From positions 1-64,000 of the forward strand of contig CAIQPK010000021.1 in NCBI GenBank assembly GCA_903873705.1: a stretch of 64,000 nt of DNA. The letters are read 5' to 3'. The stretch comes from an uncultured Acidobacteriota bacterium (GTDB lineage Bacteria; Acidobacteriota; Terriglobia; Terriglobales; Acidobacteriaceae). The translations under genes were made by a program, and so were the position numbers. Below are positions 1 to 15,293 of the stretch, in pieces. The notes under the pieces were generated by a model that ran no database searches, was not told the origin of the DNA, and saw only the letters and a program-made list of their open reading frames with translations. Positions within the stretch are counted from its first letter, which is position 1. The number at the start of each line of letters is the position of its first letter.

Positions 1-237
1 ACCCGCGCCCGCCTCGCCGCCATCCGCCTCCTCTACGAGCCCCACGCCGAAGCCCTCTCCGAGTTCCTCTGCATGGACCTCCCGCTCTGGGTCTCGCCGC
101 CTCGCGCCAAGCCCGACCAGTGGACCACGGTAGCCAACCTCCGCACCCCCCTGACCGCCCGCTCCGAGTTCTCTCAGCACATCAGCTCCCAATCGGCCGC
201 CTCCAGCCTCAACGACGACGCCTCTCACCCCCTCTAA
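1..237 (+). CDS. C-terminal fragment of an unidentified protein (truncated by window edge)
   Basis: Frame 1 is open from base 1 to TAA at 235-237 (...ARSEFSQHISSQSAASSLNDDASHPL*). Confidence 0.55.
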   Translation, partial: TRARLAAIRLLYEPHAEALSEFLCMDLPLWVSPPRAKPDQWTTVANLRTPLTARSEFSQHISSQSAASSLNDDASHPL

Positions 238-314
238 TTGCTGGAGTGCCGTGCAGGCCATCACTATCCGAAAATTCTTCAAAGGGGCGCGTGCGTTCAT
301 GTGCGCTAAAACCG

Positions 315-342
315 GAAGGCCCTCCGTCCTCGGAGGGCCTTC
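315..342. terminator. Intrinsic terminator-like hairpin
   Basis: Perfect 12-bp stem GAAGGCCCTCCG-TCCT-CGGAGGGCCTTC. Confidence 0.7.
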
Positions 343-358
343 ATGATGTCGAATCTCT

Positions 359-434
359 TGGAGCACCGGATGGGATTTGAACCCATGAATACTGGTTTTG
401 CAGACCAGCGCGTTAGCCACTTCGCCACCGGTGC
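359..434 (-). tRNA. tRNA-Cys (GCA anticodon)
   Basis: Reverse complement GCACCGG...CTGGTCTGCAAAACCAG...GGGTTCAAATCCC...CCGGTGCTCCA: paired acceptor, anticodon GCA, T-loop and encoded CCA. Confidence 0.93.
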
Positions 435-483
435 TCATGCGCGTGCCCTTACTGCCACGCGCAAACTTTGAAGCACCAGATTA

Positions 484-3167: not shown

Positions 3168-3602
3168 ATGCGCCCACGCAAAACCATTCTCTGCGTCGAA
3201 GACAACGAACAGATTCTCTCCATCCGCAAGTTCATGCTGGAAACCCGCGGCTATCGCGTGGTCACCGCGATCTCCGCCGCTGAAGCGCTTGACCAGATCC
3301 ACGCCGCCGCCCCCGGCGCCATCGACCTTCTGCTGTCGGATCTGATCATGCCGCAGATGGACGGCAACGAGCTTGCCCGCCGCGCCAAGCAGCACAACCC
3401 CGCGTTGCCGGTGCTGCTGGTCTCCGGCACCGTCACCAACTTTGACCGCGCCACGGCCGCGGACGCTTTTCTCCCCAAGGGAGCCTGCACGCCGGTCGAA
3501 TTGCTCGATCGTATCCGTTTGCTGGTCGCACGCAAACGCGGGCCCAAGAAGCAGCCCGCGTCAGTTCCGGTTCCAGGCGTAGCGATGCGTGCAGCCGGAT
3601 AG
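3168..3602 (+). CDS. Response regulator receiver domain protein
   Basis: ILCVEDNEQIL...DLLLSDLIMPQMDGNEL...LLVSG. Confidence 0.9.
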   Translation: MRPRKTILCVEDNEQILSIRKFMLETRGYRVVTAISAAEALDQIHAAAPGAIDLLLSDLIMPQMDGNELARRAKQHNPALPVLLVSGTVTNFDRATAADAFLPKGACTPVELLDRIRLLVARKRGPKKQPASVPVPGVAMRAAG

Positions 3603-3629
3603 TGCGTTCGGCGTGCTGGCTTGGTTGCG

Positions 3630-4070
3630 CTACACGCGGTCGTGGTCGGCGCGCCAGGCCACGATGGCCTGCTTGATTTGCGACCGCGTCATCTTCTCGC
3701 GCACCGCACGTCGTGCCAAATCAGGCAGTTCGGGGTTTGAAGCAAACCGGAGACCGACGTATTGGTCCACCGTCAGCGATTCGAGCTCAACCAGCTCCGA
3801 GTGGCTCACCAGCGAAGCGAGCCGCAGCCGCTCTTCCAGCCGGATCAAGCGGTCCTGCACTTTCAATGCGTTCGACCGTGACTTGATCGCCAGTATCAAT
3901 AGCGCCATCGACAGCAGCACCAGCCACATGCCGCTGTGCACGTGCTGAGCATAGTGCCGGTAGTACCAGACGCTGACGGCAACCACATTCAGCAGCATCA
4001 CCGGCGCAACGAAGAAGTGAAACGCAGGGTCCCAGCGGGCATGGCTCTTATAGCTTTGAACAGCGGACAT
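3630..4070 (-). CDS. DUF6526-like membrane protein
   Basis: MSAVQSYKSHARWDPAFHFFVAPVMLLNVV...; start set at internal ATG 4070. Confidence 0.7.
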   Translation of the reverse strand: MSAVQSYKSHARWDPAFHFFVAPVMLLNVVAVSVWYYRHYAQHVHSGMWLVLLSMALLILAIKSRSNALKVQDRLIRLEERLRLASLVSHSELVELESLTVDQYVGLRFASNPELPDLARRAVREKMTRSQIKQAIVAWRADHDRV

Positions 4071-4169: not shown

Positions 4170-5036
4170 ATGGCAACAACTAGAAAACGGATTGGCGTAC
4201 ACGTCAGCACCAGTGGCGGCGTGTGGACGGCTATTGGCCGCGCCGTCGAGGCCGGCGCCAACACTCTGCAAATCTTCAGCTCCAGCCCTCGCGCCTGGAA
4301 GTCCGGCACGGTCAAGCCGGCGGACGCCCTCAAGCTCAATGCGCTCCGGGCTGAGTACGACGTGCATCCGCTCGCCATCCACGCCAGCTTCCTCATCAAC
4401 CTCTGCTCCCAGACGGAAAGCATCCGCGTCAGCTCCATCGACGCCTTCCGTGCGGAAGTGCAGCAGGCGCTAGCCCTCGGCGCCGAGTACCTGGTCGTCC
4501 ACACCGGAAGCTGGAAAGGCCTCACCCGTGAAGAGGGCCTGCGCCTGGCTGCGCAGTCCATCGAGCGCGCGATCGACGGCCTCCCATGGCAGGACGCCAA
4601 CTTCAAAATACTGATCGAAAACGCTCCCGGCGCGGAGTTTGCGCTGGGCTCCACGCTCGAGCAGGTAGCCGAGCTGGTCGCCTGCCTGCGCACCTGCGCT
4701 CCCGTCGATGTCTGCCTCGACACCTGCCATCTTCACGTCGCCGGCTACGACCTCGTAACCCCTGAGGGCTACGCAGCAACGACCGGACTTATCGGCAGCA
4801 CGGTTGGCTTTGACTCCGTCCGCGTGTGGCACTGCAACGATGCGAAGGCGCCGCTGGGCTCAAAGCTCGACCGCCACGAGCACATCGGCGAAGGCACCAT
4901 CGGCGCCGAAGCCTTCCGCCGCCTGCTGCATGACGACCGCTTCAGCCACTCTGCCTTCATCGCAGAGACTCCCGCAGATGACGAAGGTGACAATCTGCGT
5001 AATGTCATGACCCTGCGCGCACTCTCCGCAGGCTGA
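4170..5036 (+). CDS. nfo: Deoxyribonuclease IV (endonuclease IV, AP endonuclease)
   Basis: RIGVHVSTSGGVWTAIGRAVEAGANTLQIFSSSPRAWK...CLDTCHLHVAGYD...HIGEGTIG. Confidence 0.95.
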   Translation: MATTRKRIGVHVSTSGGVWTAIGRAVEAGANTLQIFSSSPRAWKSGTVKPADALKLNALRAEYDVHPLAIHASFLINLCSQTESIRVSSIDAFRAEVQQALALGAEYLVVHTGSWKGLTREEGLRLAAQSIERAIDGLPWQDANFKILIENAPGAEFALGSTLEQVAELVACLRTCAPVDVCLDTCHLHVAGYDLVTPEGYAATTGLIGSTVGFDSVRVWHCNDAKAPLGSKLDRHEHIGEGTIGAEAFRRLLHDDRFSHSAFIAETPADDEGDNLRNVMTLRALSAG

Positions 5037-5059
5037 GCAGTCACGATAAGCTGTTAGCC

Positions 5060-6394
5060 ATGCGCGCTTCCTTCGTTGCCTCAATCGCCGCTCTCGCCAT
5101 CAGCCTGCCCGCTGCCTCGCAATCGAAAGGCTCGGCCTACCCCGCGATCAACCTGCCCACGTGGTCGCAGCAGATTGCCATCCGCGAAGGCTGGCTGGTC
5201 AAGCGCCACGCTGCGCTGCTCGAGATGATGCGCCGCCACCAGATCGACATGTGGATCGTCGTCAATGAAGAGTTCCACAACGATCCCCTCACCGAGTACA
5301 TCGCTCCGCCGCGCCCGTACACCGGCAACCGCGATATCTTCGTCTTCATCGACACGGGCACCGCTCTCCGCAAGGTGGCTGTGACCGGATACGCGGAAGA
5401 GAACGTGCAGCGCTTCTTTGAAGCACCCGACGATCCCAAGCCCGCCGATCAAACGCTTCACGCGCTATACGAGCAGTACCATCCGAAACACATCGGCCTT
5501 GCTATCGACGCTCGCCGCGGCGTCCAGCGCTCGCTCACGCGTGACGCTTATCTTTTTCTTGCAAAAAGCATGGGCGGCGATGCCGAATCACACTTTGTAC
5601 CGGCTGCGGATCTGATCGAGGAGTACAGCGACACCCGCCTTCCCGATGAATTCGAAACCTACAAGACCCTGGTCGCACTCACCGATCAGCTAACGAAACG
5701 CGCCTTCTCCAATGAGGTCGTCACGCCCGGCAAGACCACCGTCGGCGACATCCGCCGCTGGCTCTATGACCAGATGGGTGCGCACAACGTTTCGACGTGG
5801 TTCCAGCAGGACATCCGCCTGCAGCGCCGAGGCCGCAATCCGTCGAAGTCGCGCGGCTTCCTCGCCGTCGAGCCTGAAGAAACCGTGATCCAACGTGGCG
5901 ACGTCCTGCACCTCGACTTCGGCATCACGGCGATGGGCCTCAACACCGACTGGCAGAAGGAAGCCTACGTTCTGCTACCCGGTGAAAAGGATGCACCTGC
6001 GGGCCTTAAGCTTGCGCTCGCTCACACTAACGCGCTGCAGGAGTCGCTGATGACGCGGTCCCGCCCCGGCCGCCTTGCCGGCGACGTTTACAACGACATC
6101 ATGGCCGACATGAAGCAGCAGGGAATCGAACCCATGGTCTACTCCCACCCCATTGGCGACCAGGGCCACGGTCTGGGCGCGGGCCTCGACTATCGCGCGT
6201 CTCAGCAGTCCGCCGCGGAAGGCAAGCGCATGCGCAAGGGCTCCTACATCTCCATCGAGCTCAATTCAGCAACGCCTGTGCCGGAGTGGGACAATCAGAA
6301 GGTCTACATCATGGAAGAGGACGATGCCTACCTCACCGACGACGGCTTCAAGACCTTCCTCCCCCGCCAGACCAGCCTTTACCTCATCCACTAG
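5060..6394 (+). CDS. Secreted M24 family metallopeptidase (Xaa-Pro aminopeptidase-like)
   Basis: Signal peptide; GDVLHLDFGITAMGLNTDWQ; HPIGDQGHGLGAG; SIELNSATPV. Confidence 0.85.
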   Translation: MRASFVASIAALAISLPAASQSKGSAYPAINLPTWSQQIAIREGWLVKRHAALLEMMRRHQIDMWIVVNEEFHNDPLTEYIAPPRPYTGNRDIFVFIDTGTALRKVAVTGYAEENVQRFFEAPDDPKPADQTLHALYEQYHPKHIGLAIDARRGVQRSLTRDAYLFLAKSMGGDAESHFVPAADLIEEYSDTRLPDEFETYKTLVALTDQLTKRAFSNEVVTPGKTTVGDIRRWLYDQMGAHNVSTWFQQDIRLQRRGRNPSKSRGFLAVEPEETVIQRGDVLHLDFGITAMGLNTDWQKEAYVLLPGEKDAPAGLKLALAHTNALQESLMTRSRPGRLAGDVYNDIMADMKQQGIEPMVYSHPIGDQGHGLGAGLDYRASQQSAAEGKRMRKGSYISIELNSATPVPEWDNQKVYIMEEDDAYLTDDGFKTFLPRQTSLYLIH

Positions 6395-8340: not shown

Positions 8341-8552
8341 TCCATGCGTCGCGACGGTGGCCGAGGGCGCTACTCCACCCTTGGCCACTTTTATTTGCAC
8401 AATATTGACTGCTGCACCTTGTGCCACAAAAGCCTGTAGGCAAAGGCCTTGCGGGCAGACGTCACTCGCGCCTTCACTGGATTCATGCTGCATTAACTCC
8501 CTGTAACCCTCCATTGATGATGCCGTCCGCAGCCTTCGCTAGGCTGCGAGGT

Positions 8553-11500
8553 ATGAACCTCTTACCGAGAAAATTCCTGCTGGGTGCGATGCTGTTCGCC
8601 GCAACCCTCCTCTCTGCCCGTGCGCAGACCAGTACCGCGCGCGTCTCCGGCACCGTTACTGACAGCACCGGCGCCACCGTCACCGGCGCCACCGTCACCG
8701 CGCACAACGAGCAGACCGGCGTAGACCGGACCGCCACCGCCGGTGCGGGCGGGGCTTTCGTCTTCTTCTCACTTCAGCCCACGGAATACACCCTCAGCGC
8801 CACCGCGACCGGCTTCAACAACGTCCAGCTCAGCAAACTCGCGCTGAAGGTCGGCCAGGAGTTCATCTGGAACCCCTCGCTCTCGGTCGCCTCAGATAAA
8901 TCCGTCGTTACCGTCAGCGCCGATGACATCTCCGAGCTCGACACCTCTTCCGCGCGCATCGGAGGCAATGTTTCCAGCCGAGAAGTGGAGCAACTGCCTA
9001 TCAACGGCCGCCAGATCTCGCAGCTCTACCTGCTCATCCCCGGCGCCACCAACACCGGCGTCGGCAACTTCGACAATATCCACTTCAGCGGCCGCGCTAC
9101 CGAGCAGAACATCATTCGCCTCGACGGAATCGAAGCCACGTCCATCATCGATACGTCCCCGGGCAATCTCAACGGCGAGCTGACCTCGATCTTCCGCCTG
9201 CAGCAGTCGCTTGAGGCGGTGCAGGAGTTTCGCGTCGATTCCTCCAGCTACCCCGCTGAAATGGGTACGGGCACCGGCGGCCAGATCAGCTTCGTGACCA
9301 AGTCCGGTTCGAACAACCCGCACGGCTCCGTGTTCGAGTACCTCCGCAACGACGTGTTCGACGCACGCAACTTCTTCAATGCGGCTCCTAAGAGCACCAA
9401 GTTCCGGCTCAACCAGTTCGGCGGTTCCTTCGGCGGCGCACTCATCAAGGACAAGCTCTTCGGCTTCGCCGCGTATGAAGGCCTCCGCCAGGTTTACGTC
9501 GCTCCTTATACTCAGGCGACGCTCAGCAATTATTCGCGGTCGCTCATTCCCGCGGGTTCGCCGATCCTGAACCTGCTGGCCGCTTACCCGAACGATCCCA
9601 ACAGCCTCGCCTCCGAAACCGTCCCAGCCACTCCCTCGGTTACGGTGAGCGTCAACGGGCAGAACCGCATCCAGGAAGACTTCGGCGACATCCGGTTTGA
9701 CTACAACATCAGTGACCGCTTCCACCTGTACGCGCGCTACAATCGCGACCAGGGCACGTCCGCGCAGATCCAGGACGCCTCGCTCAGCAAGTTCGGCCAG
9801 GTTGAAGTTCCGCAGAACGCCGTGCTTGCGCTCAACCAGGTGTGGTCTTCGCGCATCTTCAACGAGACCAAGTTCGGCTTCAACGGTATCAAGATGCGTG
9901 TGCAGGGTATCGCCGGTCCCAGCCCCAACGCTGACCTCAGCCGCTCGCGTATCGCCGTCGCCGGCCTAACCAACATTGGCGCGCTCATCTCGCTGTCGAG
10001 TTCCTTCAACGGTGTCGGCGCTCCCTACACCGGCCAGACCTACTCGTACATCGACAACTTCTCCTACGTTGCTGGCCGCCACAATATGAAGTTTGGCGGC
10101 GAAATCCGTCCGCTTGGTCTTTACAACGATCAGATCGGCGGACAAACCTACACCTACACGAGCATTGCGGACTTCATCAATAACCGTAACTCGACGATCG
10201 CCTTCTACGGTAACCTCAGCGACAAGAGCCCCTTCACTGGACTCAGTGGCAATGCGTACGTCAAGCAGGCGTATTACATCGGCTACGCGCAGGACGAGTG
10301 GAAGGTGCTGCCTAACCTGACCGTCAGCTACGGCATGCGCTACGAGTTCTACTCGCCGCTGCATGAAACCCGCAACAAGGACGTGGTCTTCAACATAGCT
10401 TCCGGCACCATCTCTCCCGGATTCACCGGCGACTGGTATCACAGCTCAATGAAGAACTTCGGACCGCGCATCGGCATCACCTACGCGCCCAGCCTGTTCG
10501 CGCTGAAGACCGTCATCCGCGCCGGCGCCGGCCTCTACTACGGCCCCGGACAGACCGAAGACCAGATCCAGCCCGAAGCCAACGACCGCGTCTCGACGAC
10601 GTTTTCGGCCAGCTCCGGCAAGATCTATCCCATCGATCCCGTCGCCATCACCGCGGCGTATAACGTCAACGATCCCAACCTCGGCTACCAGCCCCGGGCC
10701 TACACCAGCAACTACACCATCCCCGAGCGCGTCGGCACGTACACGTTCTCGGTCGAGCAGGAGCTGCCCGCCAAGTTCCAGCTCATGGTCGGCTACGTCG
10801 GCTCGGGTGGCCGCAACCTCTTCCTGCGCGCCATCACCAACACCATCACCGGTGTTTATCAGAACCCCACCACCGGCGCTGGCACAGCCATCCGCCAGTT
10901 CACTGTCGGAGGCACGCCCACGACTTCGACGGTTGCCGGCGCTCCCGGCACTAACCGCTTCGCCGAAATCGACTACAAAACGTCCGGCGGCAGCGACAAC
11001 TACAACGCTCTGCAGTCCACACTGCAACGCCGCTACAACTCCGGGGTCTCCTTCGGTGCACAGTATACTTTCGCCAAGGAGCTGGGCACCTCCAGCGGTT
11101 CCAACGAAGCCACCACCGCGCAGAACCCCTTCGACCTCAGCACGGAGTTCGGCCGCGGCACCAACGATATCCGCCATAACCTGAACGCCACCGTGCTGTA
11201 TGACCTCCCGTGGGGCCACGGCAAGCGCTACTCGTTGAGCGGCCCGGCAGACATGCTGCTCGGTGGCTTCCAGATTGGCGGCGTGGTGAATGCGCGCAGC
11301 GGTCTGCCCATCGACGTTCTGATCACGCGCCCTGACCTCGCCTACGTCGGCAACGCCGGCAGCGCGATCGCCGGCCAGGTCTTCAGCTCGCCGGTCGTCA
11401 CCGCTGGCGTCGTCCAGACCACGGCTGTCGTCAACGTCCCTGGCGGCGGCAACACCCGCAACATTAGGCGTCCCAACGTCGTGCCCGGAGTAAGCAAGTA

Positions 11501-11909
11501 CCTCGGCTCGCGCGGCCAGTTCATCAACCCCGCAGCCTTCTCGGTGCCTGTACCCGGCACCTTCGGTAACGCCCGACGCAACGACACCACCGGCCCCGGC
11601 CTCACCCAGTTCGACCTCACGCTCTCCAAGAAGTTCTCGCTTTACGAGCGCGTCCACGCCGAATTCAAGGCCGATGCCTACAACATCTTCAACCACCCCA
11701 ACTTCGCCAACCCCGGCACGGTCCGCCTCTCGCAGGGCATCCCGTCGGCGCCCGGAGCAGCCAACAGCCTGCAACCCGGAACGCCGTTCCCCAACGGTAA
11801 CAACGCCACCGCCGGCAGCGCCTTCGGTGCGCTCAGCGCCACCGTCGGCAACCAGGTCGGCCTTGGCACCAACCGCCAGCTTCAGCTTTCGCTGCGCGTC
11901 AGTTTCTAG
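8553..11909 (+). CDS. TonB-dependent receptor-like outer membrane protein (Oar/CarboxypepD_reg-like)
   Basis: MNLLPRKFLL...ARVSGTVTDSTGATVTGATVTAHNEQTG...; C-terminal LQLSLRVSF. Confidence 0.9.
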   Translation: MNLLPRKFLLGAMLFAATLLSARAQTSTARVSGTVTDSTGATVTGATVTAHNEQTGVDRTATAGAGGAFVFFSLQPTEYTLSATATGFNNVQLSKLALKVGQEFIWNPSLSVASDKSVVTVSADDISELDTSSARIGGNVSSREVEQLPINGRQISQLYLLIPGATNTGVGNFDNIHFSGRATEQNIIRLDGIEATSIIDTSPGNLNGELTSIFRLQQSLEAVQEFRVDSSSYPAEMGTGTGGQISFVTKSGSNNPHGSVFEYLRNDVFDARNFFNAAPKSTKFRLNQFGGSFGGALIKDKLFGFAAYEGLRQVYVAPYTQATLSNYSRSLIPAGSPILNLLAAYPNDPNSLASETVPATPSVTVSVNGQNRIQEDFGDIRFDYNISDRFHLYARYNRDQGTSAQIQDASLSKFGQVEVPQNAVLALNQVWSSRIFNETKFGFNGIKMRVQGIAGPSPNADLSRSRIAVAGLTNIGALISLSSSFNGVGAPYTGQTYSYIDNFSYVAGRHNMKFGGEIRPLGLYNDQIGGQTYTYTSIADFINNRNSTIAFYGNLSDKSPFTGLSGNAYVKQAYYIGYAQDEWKVLPNLTVSYGMRYEFYSPLHETRNKDVVFNIASGTISPGFTGDWYHSSMKNFGPRIGITYAPSLFALKTVIRAGAGLYYGPGQTEDQIQPEANDRVSTTFSASSGKIYPIDPVAITAAYNVNDPNLGYQPRAYTSNYTIPERVGTYTFSVEQELPAKFQLMVGYVGSGGRNLFLRAITNTITGVYQNPTTGAGTAIRQFTVGGTPTTSTVAGAPGTNRFAEIDYKTSGGSDNYNALQSTLQRRYNSGVSFGAQYTFAKELGTSSGSNEATTAQNPFDLSTEFGRGTNDIRHNLNATVLYDLPWGHGKRYSLSGPADMLLGGFQIGGVVNARSGLPIDVLITRPDLAYVGNAGSAIAGQVFSSPVVTAGVVQTTAVVNVPGGGNTRNIRRPNVVPGVSKYLGSRGQFINPAAFSVPVPGTFGNARRNDTTGPGLTQFDLTLSKKFSLYERVHAEFKADAYNIFNHPNFANPGTVRLSQGIPSAPGAANSLQPGTPFPNGNNATAGSAFGALSATVGNQVGLGTNRQLQLSLRVSF

Positions 11910-11929
11910 TCCACCCCCCTGTACCTCTT

Positions 11930-11952
11930 GGCCCGGCGCTCGTCGCCGGGCC
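11930..11952 (+). terminator. Intrinsic terminator after the receptor gene
   Basis: GGCCCGGCG-CTCGT-CGCCGGGCC then TTACTTTTTCC. Confidence 0.75.
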
Positions 11953-12126
11953 TTACTTTTTCCAGTTGACTTTAGCCGCCCCGCTTCCTTACCGTTACCT
12001 CAGGCGCTAAGGGCGCATCCGGTCCGCGGAAAGGGCAGTGCCCACCTCAGCCGTTCCCAATCCGACGAACTTCTTTCCAGCCTGACAAGTGCGGACACCC
12101 AGGCAAGCAACCGAAAGGAGCTTCGT

Positions 12127-13749
12127 ATGTTTGAACAGCAACTCCCCGCCCACCCCAGCATCGAGCAATACAAAAATCAGGCCAAAGACCTTCTCCGCGA
12201 TGCGCGGCTCGGCCTCGCCGAAACCCTCGCACGCCTGCAGCGCAATCATCCGCGCTTCCATCCGCTCTCCGCGGAAAAGCTCGCCGCCGAACCCGTCTCT
12301 CTCACGGATGCCCAACTCATTCTCGCCCGCGAGCACGGCTTTCTCAGCTGGCCCAAGTTCGCCGCGCACATCGAAACCCTTCGCCTTATCCGCGAAGTCG
12401 AAGCCATCACTGACCCGGTAGCCGCCTTCATCGACGTCGCCGTCATCCCCCGCCACACCGGCCACGCAACCGGTACGCTGGAGCACGCCGAGCTCATCCT
12501 CGCCCGCTACCCGGACGTAGCCACCGCCAGCATCCACACCGCCGCCATCCTGGCCGACGAGGACGCCGTCCGCCGCTTCCTCACTGCCGAACCCAGCGCC
12601 GCAACGGCGAAAGGTGGTCCGCTAGGCTGGGACCCGCTGACTCACCTCTGCTTCTCCCGCTTCCTGCGCCTCGACGCCAGCCGCTCCGAAGCCTTCGTCC
12701 GCACCGCCGGCGCACTGCTGGATGCGGGAGCAAGCGCCAACACCGGTTGGACCGAACTCATCGACCAGCCCACTCCCCGCGAGACCATCGAGCGCGCCAT
12801 CTATGGCGTCGCCGCGGTCGCCCAGCACGTCGAGCTCACCCGCCTCCTACTGGAGCGCGGCGCCGACCCCAACGACGAAGAGACGCCCTACCACGTCCCT
12901 GAAAACTACGACAACGCCGTCCTGGAGCTGCTGCTCCAGAGTGGTAAGTTCACCCCCGCCAGCCTCGCCATCATCCTCATCCGCAAAGCTGACGTCCACG
13001 ATTTCGCTGGAATGAAGCTGGCTCTCGAACACGGCGCCGATCCCAACCTGCAGTCCCGCTGGGGGATCACCGCGCTCCACCAGGCCCTGCGCCGCGATAA
13101 CCAGCTCGCCACCATCGCGCTGCTCCTCGATCACGGCGCGGACCCCGCCCTCATCACGCGTGAAGGCTTCTCCGCCACCTTCATCGCCGCGCACCGCGGC
13201 CGGGGCGACGTCCTCCGTCTCTTCGAAGAGCGGCAAATTCCTCTCGGCCTCTCCGGCCCCGCCACTCTCCTCGCGGCCCTCGCCCAAGGCGACCGCGACG
13301 GCATCAGCACCCTCCTCTCCGAGCAACCCGCGCTCCGCACCCAACTCCTCGCTTACGGCGGCTCGCTTCTCGCGCCGTTCTCCGGCAACGGCAACCTCGA
13401 AGGCGTCCGCTGTCTGCTCGAACTCGGAGTCCCAGTCGACGCGCTCTATACGGAAGGCGACGGCTACTTCGAAGTCGCCCGCAACAGCACCGCTCTCCAC
13501 GTAGCCGCCTGGCGAGCCCGTCCCGCCGTGGTCACCGAGCTCATCGCCCGCGGCGCCGACGTCAACGCCCTCGACGCCCGTGGCCGCACCCCACTCCAGC
13601 TGGCCATCAAGGCCGCAGTCGACTCCTACTGGACCGACCGCCGCACCCCCGAGTCCATCGCCGCTCTCCTCACCGCCGGCGCTACCACCTCCAACATCAC
13701 CCTTCCCACCGGCTACGAAGAGGCGGACAACCTCCTCCGCAACTGCTAA
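12127..13749 (+). CDS. Ankyrin-repeat protein
   Basis: Repeated ankyrin units (LLLERGADPNDEETPYH, LALEHGADPNLQSRWGITALHQAL, ELIARGADVNALDARGRTPLQLA); ATG at 12127. Confidence 0.88.
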   Translation: MFEQQLPAHPSIEQYKNQAKDLLRDARLGLAETLARLQRNHPRFHPLSAEKLAAEPVSLTDAQLILAREHGFLSWPKFAAHIETLRLIREVEAITDPVAAFIDVAVIPRHTGHATGTLEHAELILARYPDVATASIHTAAILADEDAVRRFLTAEPSAATAKGGPLGWDPLTHLCFSRFLRLDASRSEAFVRTAGALLDAGASANTGWTELIDQPTPRETIERAIYGVAAVAQHVELTRLLLERGADPNDEETPYHVPENYDNAVLELLLQSGKFTPASLAIILIRKADVHDFAGMKLALEHGADPNLQSRWGITALHQALRRDNQLATIALLLDHGADPALITREGFSATFIAAHRGRGDVLRLFEERQIPLGLSGPATLLAALAQGDRDGISTLLSEQPALRTQLLAYGGSLLAPFSGNGNLEGVRCLLELGVPVDALYTEGDGYFEVARNSTALHVAAWRARPAVVTELIARGADVNALDARGRTPLQLAIKAAVDSYWTDRRTPESIAALLTAGATTSNITLPTGYEEADNLLRNC

Positions 13750-13758
13750 CCTACCGAC

Positions 13759-13922
13759 GGGCAGCGAAGCACTCCAAGCCTGAACCGGCAGCTTCGGCTC
13801 GTCGTTCTCTCCGGGGATACCCCGGGGTATCGTGGTGACTGACACTTCGTCGCGGCGGGGACCTGCGCTTACAGCGCAACATCCAGCCGCAGAGTGAGAC
13901 TCGTTGGAGCGCTTCGCTGCCC
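13759..13922 (+). ncRNA. Putative retron msr-msd ncRNA
   Basis: a1 GGGCAGCGAAGCACTCCAA (13759-13777) and a2 TTGGAGCGCTTCGCTGCCC (13904-13922) pair 18/19; AGC directly after a1; hairpins GGC.AGC-UUCG-GCU.C.GUC, CUCCGGGG-AUA-CCCCGGGG and TGCGCT-TAC-AGCGCA nested in GCGGC/GCCGC; directly upstream of a retron-type RT. Confidence 0.78.
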
Positions 13923-14066
13923 ACTGCGCGCGTCAACCCGGTTGCTGTTGAGGTCATCGCCGCCGCGCTCCTCTCAGCCGGCACGGACCCGGACGCCGCC
14001 TGGACTCTACTCGCAGCGACCCTCGGCACCGACCGCCCCTGGATTCGTCCCCTTGTCCGTCGCTTC

Positions 14067-15293
14067 ATGGCCCACTTTGGCGATCGGTTGCGCCCCCGCG
14101 AAAGCGAAGTCGTCGCCTTCCTCAAAAGGGACACCGGCTTCCGCCGCATCAACGCAAGACATCCGGGCCACCTGCACATCGCGCACTGGATCACAGCCGC
14201 CGCCCCCATGCAGCCGATGCCCGCAGTTGCGACGTGGGCCCTTCCCGCGCTCGTCACCGTCGATGACCTGGCCGCGCACCTCCGCCTCAGCCCCGCTGAG
14301 CTCGCCTGGTTCGCCGATCTCAAAAGCCTCACCCGCAAGCCCCGCGTCTCTGCTCAGCTCCAGCACTACCACTACCGCTGGCTCACCAAGTCCACCGGAG
14401 CGCTCCGTTTGATCGAGTCGCCCAAAGGCCTCCTCAAAAAATTCCAGCGCCACATCCTTACCACCATCCTCAACTGTGTTCCTCCCCACCCGGCCGTACA
14501 CGGGTTCGTTGCCTGTCGCTCCATCAAGACCTTCGCATCGCCGCACACCGCGCAAGCCATCGTTCTTCGCCTCGACCTCCAGGACTTTTTCCCCTCCATC
14601 CGGCGTGCGCGCGTGCAAAGCATCTTTCGCACCCTCGGCTACCCGGAAACCGTCGCCGACCTGCTCGGCGGCCTCTGCACCAACGCCGCTCCCAGCGCCA
14701 TCTTTCAAGACCAGCCATCCTCTCGCGACCTCCGCGACCTCTACGCCCAGACCCACCTTCCCCAAGGCGCTCCCACCTCTCCCGCGCTCGCCAACATTGC
14801 TGCCTACCGCATGGACTGCCGCCTTTTCGGCCTCGCGCAGGCCTCAGGCATCACCTACACCCGTTACGCCGACGACCTCGCCTTCTCCGGTTCCGTCACC
14901 TTCGCGCGAAGCGCCGACCGCTTCGCAACCCACGTTGCCTCCATCGCCATGCAGGAAGGCTTCGCCATCAATCACCGCAAGACCCGCATCATGCGCAGCG
15001 GCTCCCGCCAACACCTGGCCGGCCTGGTCGTCAATCAACACCCCAATATCGCCCGGCCCGACTTCGATCGCCTCAAGGCCACCCTCCACAACTGCCTTCG
15101 CAACGGCCCCACTGCCGAAAACCGCGAAAACATCCCCCACTTCCGGTCCCATCTCCTGGGCCGCATCGCCTTCGTCGCCATGGCCAACCCCACCCGCGGC
15201 GCCCGGCTGGCCCGTCTCTTCGAAGCGATTGCCTGGAGCGAAGACCGCACAGAAAACCATCTTGCCGAAGGCCTTCCTAACGATCGCGCTTGA
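14067..15293 (+). CDS. Retron-type reverse transcriptase (frame open upstream to 13839, N-terminus uncertain)
   Basis: VLRLDLQDFFPSI; LPQGAPTSPALANI; YTRYADDLAFSG; EGFAINHRKTRIM; RQHLAGLVVN; LLGRIAFV. Confidence 0.92.
   Translation: MAHFGDRLRPRESEVVAFLKRDTGFRRINARHPGHLHIAHWITAAAPMQPMPAVATWALPALVTVDDLAAHLRLSPAELAWFADLKSLTRKPRVSAQLQHYHYRWLTKSTGALRLIESPKGLLKKFQRHILTTILNCVPPHPAVHGFVACRSIKTFASPHTAQAIVLRLDLQDFFPSIRRARVQSIFRTLGYPETVADLLGGLCTNAAPSAIFQDQPSSRDLRDLYAQTHLPQGAPTSPALANIAAYRMDCRLFGLAQASGITYTRYADDLAFSGSVTFARSADRFATHVASIAMQEGFAINHRKTRIMRSGSRQHLAGLVVNQHPNIARPDFDRLKATLHNCLRNGPTAENRENIPHFRSHLLGRIAFVAMANPTRGARLARLFEAIAWSEDRTENHLAEGLPNDRA

Follow-up and report, generated by a model that had tools for sequence, protein, structure and literature searches.

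A bacterial retron with an msr-msd RNA and a reverse transcriptase, and no linked effector gene detected, in an uncultured member of the Acidobacteriaceae

Retron RNA and reverse transcriptase at the locus

The window is a 64,000-nucleotide stretch of DNA from an uncultured Acidobacteriota bacterium (family Acidobacteriaceae; contig CAIQPK010000021.1). It contains a predicted retron RNA followed by a gene for a reverse transcriptase (RT) (Table 1). The neighboring genes encode an outer-membrane beta-barrel (TonB-receptor-like) protein, an ankyrin-repeat protein, a protein that we take from its sequence to be the product of leuS, and a GMP synthase.

Table 1. Features of the retron locus. Coordinates are positions in the window unless given as RT residues.
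Feature	Position	Strand	Remarks
Probable retron promoter region	13728-13758	+	Weak -10 TAACCT at ~13747-13752, TGC just 5'
a1 strand of a1/a2 stem	13759-13777	+	Pairs with a2; covarying helix 1
Predicted branching guanosine	13778	+	Context CCAAGC, directly 3' of a1
msr	13778-13837	+	Hairpins 1 and 2; 3' border with msd approximate
msd template region	13831-13903	+	Hairpin 13852-13890; conserved 3' tail AGACTCG
a2 strand	13904-13922	+	Carries GGAG ribosome-binding-like site and putative CTG start
Retron RT	13917-15293	+	~458 aa if CTG 13917 is the start
RT N-terminal helical domain	residues ~8-138		AlphaFold2 model
RT domain	residues ~150-440		LPQGAPTSP and YADD

The a1 and a2 repeats have the sequences and positions described in an earlier sequence-only reading of this DNA, and they pair at 18 of 19 positions, as described there. 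In the whole 64 kb window, they are the sole pair of 19-mers within 300 nt of each other with at most one mismatch. The same reading had predicted G13778 as the branching guanosine. We confirmed that this residue immediately follows a1 and lies in an AGC context (A13777-G13778-C13779); AAG is invariant among 38 aligned sequences (below).

The minimum-free-energy fold of 13740-13940 is a closed multi-branch structure (-90.6 kcal/mol; z -3.65 versus dinucleotide shuffles) that includes both msr hairpins and the msd hairpin. The msr hairpins were recovered where they had been proposed, at 13787-13803 and 13809-13827. The first is variable in sequence among relatives, whereas the second, CUCNN-GGGG-NUA-CCCC, is almost invariant. 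The msd stem is formed by GCGGC/GCCGC (13852-13856/13886-13890), GGG/TCC, and TGCGCT/AGCGCA (13864-13869/13873-13878). The proposed msd hairpin thus stood in part: its GCGGC/GCCGC and TGCGCT/AGCGCA pairings are in the fold, but its outer CACT/AGTG pairing (13843/13896) is absent from both the fold and the family consensus. The curated Rfam models matched a tRNA alone in the window, and Rfam is therefore silent on the retron RNA; no family fits it.

The downstream RT contains both LPQGAPTSP and YADD, in agreement with the sequence-only reading. All catalytic residues and motifs are intact and the frame is unbroken. This frame is open far upstream of its first ATG (14067), and homology begins near 13935. 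Because the open frame begins well before 14067, the RT is ~50 residues longer than the ATG-based ORF; a start at 14067 would give 408 aa, with the first 50 residues and the N-terminal helical domain lost. There is no in-frame ATG, GTG or TTG between a2 and 14067. There is an in-frame CTG at 13917, inside a2 and 7 nt 3' of GGAG. Three relatives (L025, L034 and L039) have an in-frame CTG at the same place in a2, 6-7 nt past GGAG, and also lack ATG, GTG and TTG after a2; the sole such start in L039 is an in-frame TTG within GTTGGAG itself. In most other relatives, an ATG lies ~22-26 nt past GTTG. The lack of a conventional start before 14067 and the same arrangement in three relatives indicate that CTG 13917 is the likely start of RT translation.

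In an AlphaFold2 model of the RT (mean pLDDT 86), a helical domain at the N-terminus is followed by the RT domain. Retron RTs fill the top 18 places among the PDB fold matches, with Ec86 (7v9x, E 4e-19) in first place, and the PDB sequence matches are likewise all retron proteins. The N-terminal domain modelled alone had a mean pLDDT of 86, with no Pfam match above the cut-off and no significant fold match in the PDB. The Pfam domain of the RT is RVT_1. The best PADLOC models were RT_other (491 bits) and RT_outgroup (463 bits). These two models match all 26 family members scanned, nearly end to end and including most of the N-terminal domain. They are, however, catch-all labels with no named effector or mechanism.

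Two conserved positions carry altered letters in the window RT. Region X, typically NAXXH, reads FASPH, and region Y, typically VTG, reads LAG; the Burkholderiales relatives have VTG. Such substitutions occur in some validated retrons (PMC6868368). Judged by sequence, FASPH and LAG reduce the fit of this RT to the retron-specific motifs. Apart from these letters, the window locus has the retron-defining features that could be tested.

Conservation of the RNA and its linkage to the RT

Of the 301 host-family genomes, about 20 encode a relative of the RT, at ~50-55% identity. Further relatives are present in Massilia/Duganella and their relatives, Hahella, and Burkholderia. In a FastTree analysis, the placement of the window RT among the host-family RTs was weakly supported (0.276), and the Burkholderiales RTs were grouped with strong support (0.995). 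A repeat scan that tolerated G-U pairs found a1/a2, with ends CUCCAA|G...UUGGAG, upstream of the RT in most of the family genomes, and the remaining cases were recovered by inspection and then by a model. Burkholderiales, Hahella and Burkholderia share the same RNA layout.

The pairing of the RNA is supported by covariation. We aligned 38 ncRNAs by MAFFT without structure information. Among the 20 host-family sequences in this structure-unaware alignment, two-sided changes occurred at 25 of 40 pairs, compared to 10.0 in shuffles. There were 62 cells with two-sided changes, compared to 16.4 in shuffles, and none of 500 shuffles reached 62. When the partner columns were slid by 1-3 positions, paired cells fell from 92% to 36-48%.

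We also found that the RNA and the RT occur together. We built a covariance model from 29 relatives, leaving the window out; it scored the window RNA at 97.5 bits (E 9e-25) and had one weak chance match elsewhere in the 64 kb. The retron RNA model matched a single locus in the whole genome, that in the window. All 20 strong RNA matches (at least 97 bits) in the 301 host-family genomes adjoin an RT; three more matches, taken up below, were weak. The sequence-only reading had proposed examining RT homologues for the a1/a2 repeat and for covariation. Both were found, and its retron interpretation survived.

These results bear on the notion that the RT belongs to another system (a group II intron, DGR or DRT) that happens to lie next to a chance inverted repeat. 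The RVT_1 domain is common to all of these systems, and DRT and intron models do match the RT weakly. However, the retron models are ahead by hundreds of bits, the structure matches put retrons first, and the relatives show covariation across the a1/a2-msr-msd plan. The covariation and the co-occurrence of RNA and RT refute this explanation, and we give it virtually no weight. Our results strongly support the conclusion that the window locus is a true retron, complete with a1/a2, msr, msd and RT, an identification made from sequence evidence throughout, with msDNA as its predicted product.

The searches also revealed incomplete and diverged loci. One genome (G083) contains a solitary msd-like hairpin (L135:1978-2050; G083:C11:222175-222248, - strand) without msr, a2 or RT. 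It scored 51 bits (E 1.3e-8; R2 positions 1-74) against R2, an msd-only model that spans 13831-13902 and was built with the window included. This genome had no RT of the window family at E 1e-20. The hairpin is a candidate for a retro-inserted msDNA copy, with decay of a whole retron as the alternative. A partial and likely retrotransposed msDNA copy has been described in Nannocystis (reference 89 in PMC6868368). A similar but weaker msd-like case is found in G108 (L137:1491-1544). Another locus (L136:1539-1685; G143:C345) is a retron relic in which a1 and msr are recognizable, msd is deleted and there is no RT. In Massilia rubra (L018), the RNA (1160-1327) and the RT (4656-5996) are ~3.3 kb apart with a gene for a metal P-type ATPase-like protein between them; apparently, an insertion has split this retron. 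Finally, a Tsukamurella plasmid record (L124) has a strong inverted repeat and a hairpin with a GGTAACC loop at ~3528-3682, upstream of a related RT (45% identity). The model missed both; this is probably an actinobacterial member of the family that has diverged.

Neighboring genes and transcription

No gene other than the RT recurred beside the RT, within a few kilobases, in 31 loci. As no neighboring gene is conserved, we see no linked effector. Several ORFs that did recur across many loci were rejected as neighbors, since they are shadow frames of the RT. PADLOC analysis of eight neighbors gave no defense-gene match apart from a generic ankyrin-repeat resemblance. An effector encoded with or fused to the RT, a feature of tripartite defense retrons, was not found at the loci examined. 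An anti-phage role for the window retron is an inference, and nothing that we found supports it.

The TonB-like receptor gene, the ankyrin gene and the retron make up a block (8421-15293) directly upstream of leuS that is missing from same-genus genomes. Upstream of leuS, 11 other congeneric genomes have none of these three elements, and leuS retains a TACAAT box of its own. By this comparison of sequences, the retron occupies a variable insertion site.

We considered whether the ankyrin-repeat protein (~12118-13749) could be the effector of a tripartite retron. Its gene is on the same strand and ends 10 bp 5' of a1, and both it and the retron are absent from the same-genus genomes searched. 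However, homologues at 47-61% identity are present in 13 other family genomes, and the three genomes that have both keep them on different contigs or ~1 Mb apart. At the other retron loci examined, there is no ankyrin neighbor. Because the ankyrin gene is unlinked to the retron in other genomes, we rejected it as the effector; such a role is very improbable. We favor the interpretation that the complete retron is one ncRNA and one RT with no effector gene linked, to which we assign a probability of about 0.93.

A scan for strict-consensus promoters found none; comparison of relatives was more informative. In 19 of 20 host-family homologues, a -10-like hexamer lies 24-38 nt 5' of the branch G (10% expected), mostly at 26-32 nt. 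Relatives carry TATNAT at the position of TAACCT in the window, and the Burkholderiales loci have a TTGAC...TACTGT promoter 5' of a1. The window box matches the consensus at 3 of 6 positions and is the weakest of the 20; the 19 relatives match at 4 or more. With so poor a -10 box, transcription of the window retron could be weak or driven from upstream.

The weak promoter might also indicate that the retron, working in relatives, has decayed in this strain and lost its transcription. Relics with a decayed msr and no msd or RT exist in the family (G143, L136), and other genomes of the genus are without a close copy of the window RT. On the other hand, the RT reads through without a break and keeps every catalytic motif, and the RNA, which scores strongly against the model, has lost neither a1/a2 nor any hairpin. 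We think decay unlikely. The earlier proposal that the retron is functional gains indirect support from the intact catalytic residues and conserved RNA, but no member of the group has a weaker -10 box.

Predicted product and comparison with known retrons

It is well established that retrons produce branched msDNA and that a conserved guanosine primes its synthesis (PMC6868368). Based on the family anatomy and known retron chemistry, we suggest the following model. The transcript most likely begins close to a1 and is folded by a1-a2 pairing, which covariation supports. The RT would bind the msr hairpins and prime from the 2'-OH of G13778. The cDNA would start opposite G13903 and run back to roughly 13831-13850, and the product would be a branched msDNA of ~55-75 nt. 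The RT is probably translated from a start within a2 or shortly past it, and the folded RNA should therefore limit production of its own RT. As no effector gene is linked, the likeliest working form would be an RT-msDNA particle, with a partner that may be encoded elsewhere or may be the RT's own N-terminal helical domain.

A bolder version is that these are widespread single-gene retrons in which the N-terminal helical domain provides the RT's own effector or partner-binding activity and the RNA switches between mRNA and template. The switching is suggested by the burial of the RT ribosome site, sometimes with a CTG start, in the a1/a2 stem. We hold this version tentatively and consider it doubtful.

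The closest solved structure to the window RT domain is that of Eco1 (Ec86, type II-A; 7v9x). The Ec86 RT, at ~320 aa, has no N-terminal helical domain like that of the window RT, and its partner is an N-deoxyribosyltransferase-like effector. In contrast, the window RT has the helical domain and its retron is without a linked effector. To our knowledge, Mx162, Sa163, Mx65 and Ne144 also have no recognized linked effector. These retrons share with the window an extended RT N-terminus (here a helical domain of ~138 residues) and the msr-msd-RT order, and Mx162 and Sa163 also share the AGC branching context (PMC6868368). The window retron resembles this published group, the myxobacterial retrons with an extended RT N-terminus, most closely, as judged from their description (PMC6868368). 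It differs from Mx162 in msd length (162 nt in Mx162 versus the predicted ~55-75 nt) and from the Mx162 type in host phylum. A literature search on acidobacterial retrons and msDNA found no paper.

Together, the compact ncRNA and RT are a candidate scaffold for making DNA inside cells. The main interest is a retron family that, unlike most defense retrons, has no known effector. The 38 aligned ncRNAs, with their strongly conserved hairpin and tail, and the natural presence and absence of the retron within one bacterial family are a resource. They make it possible to test whether retrons with no linked effector function in phage defense, act with an unlinked partner, or have some other role.
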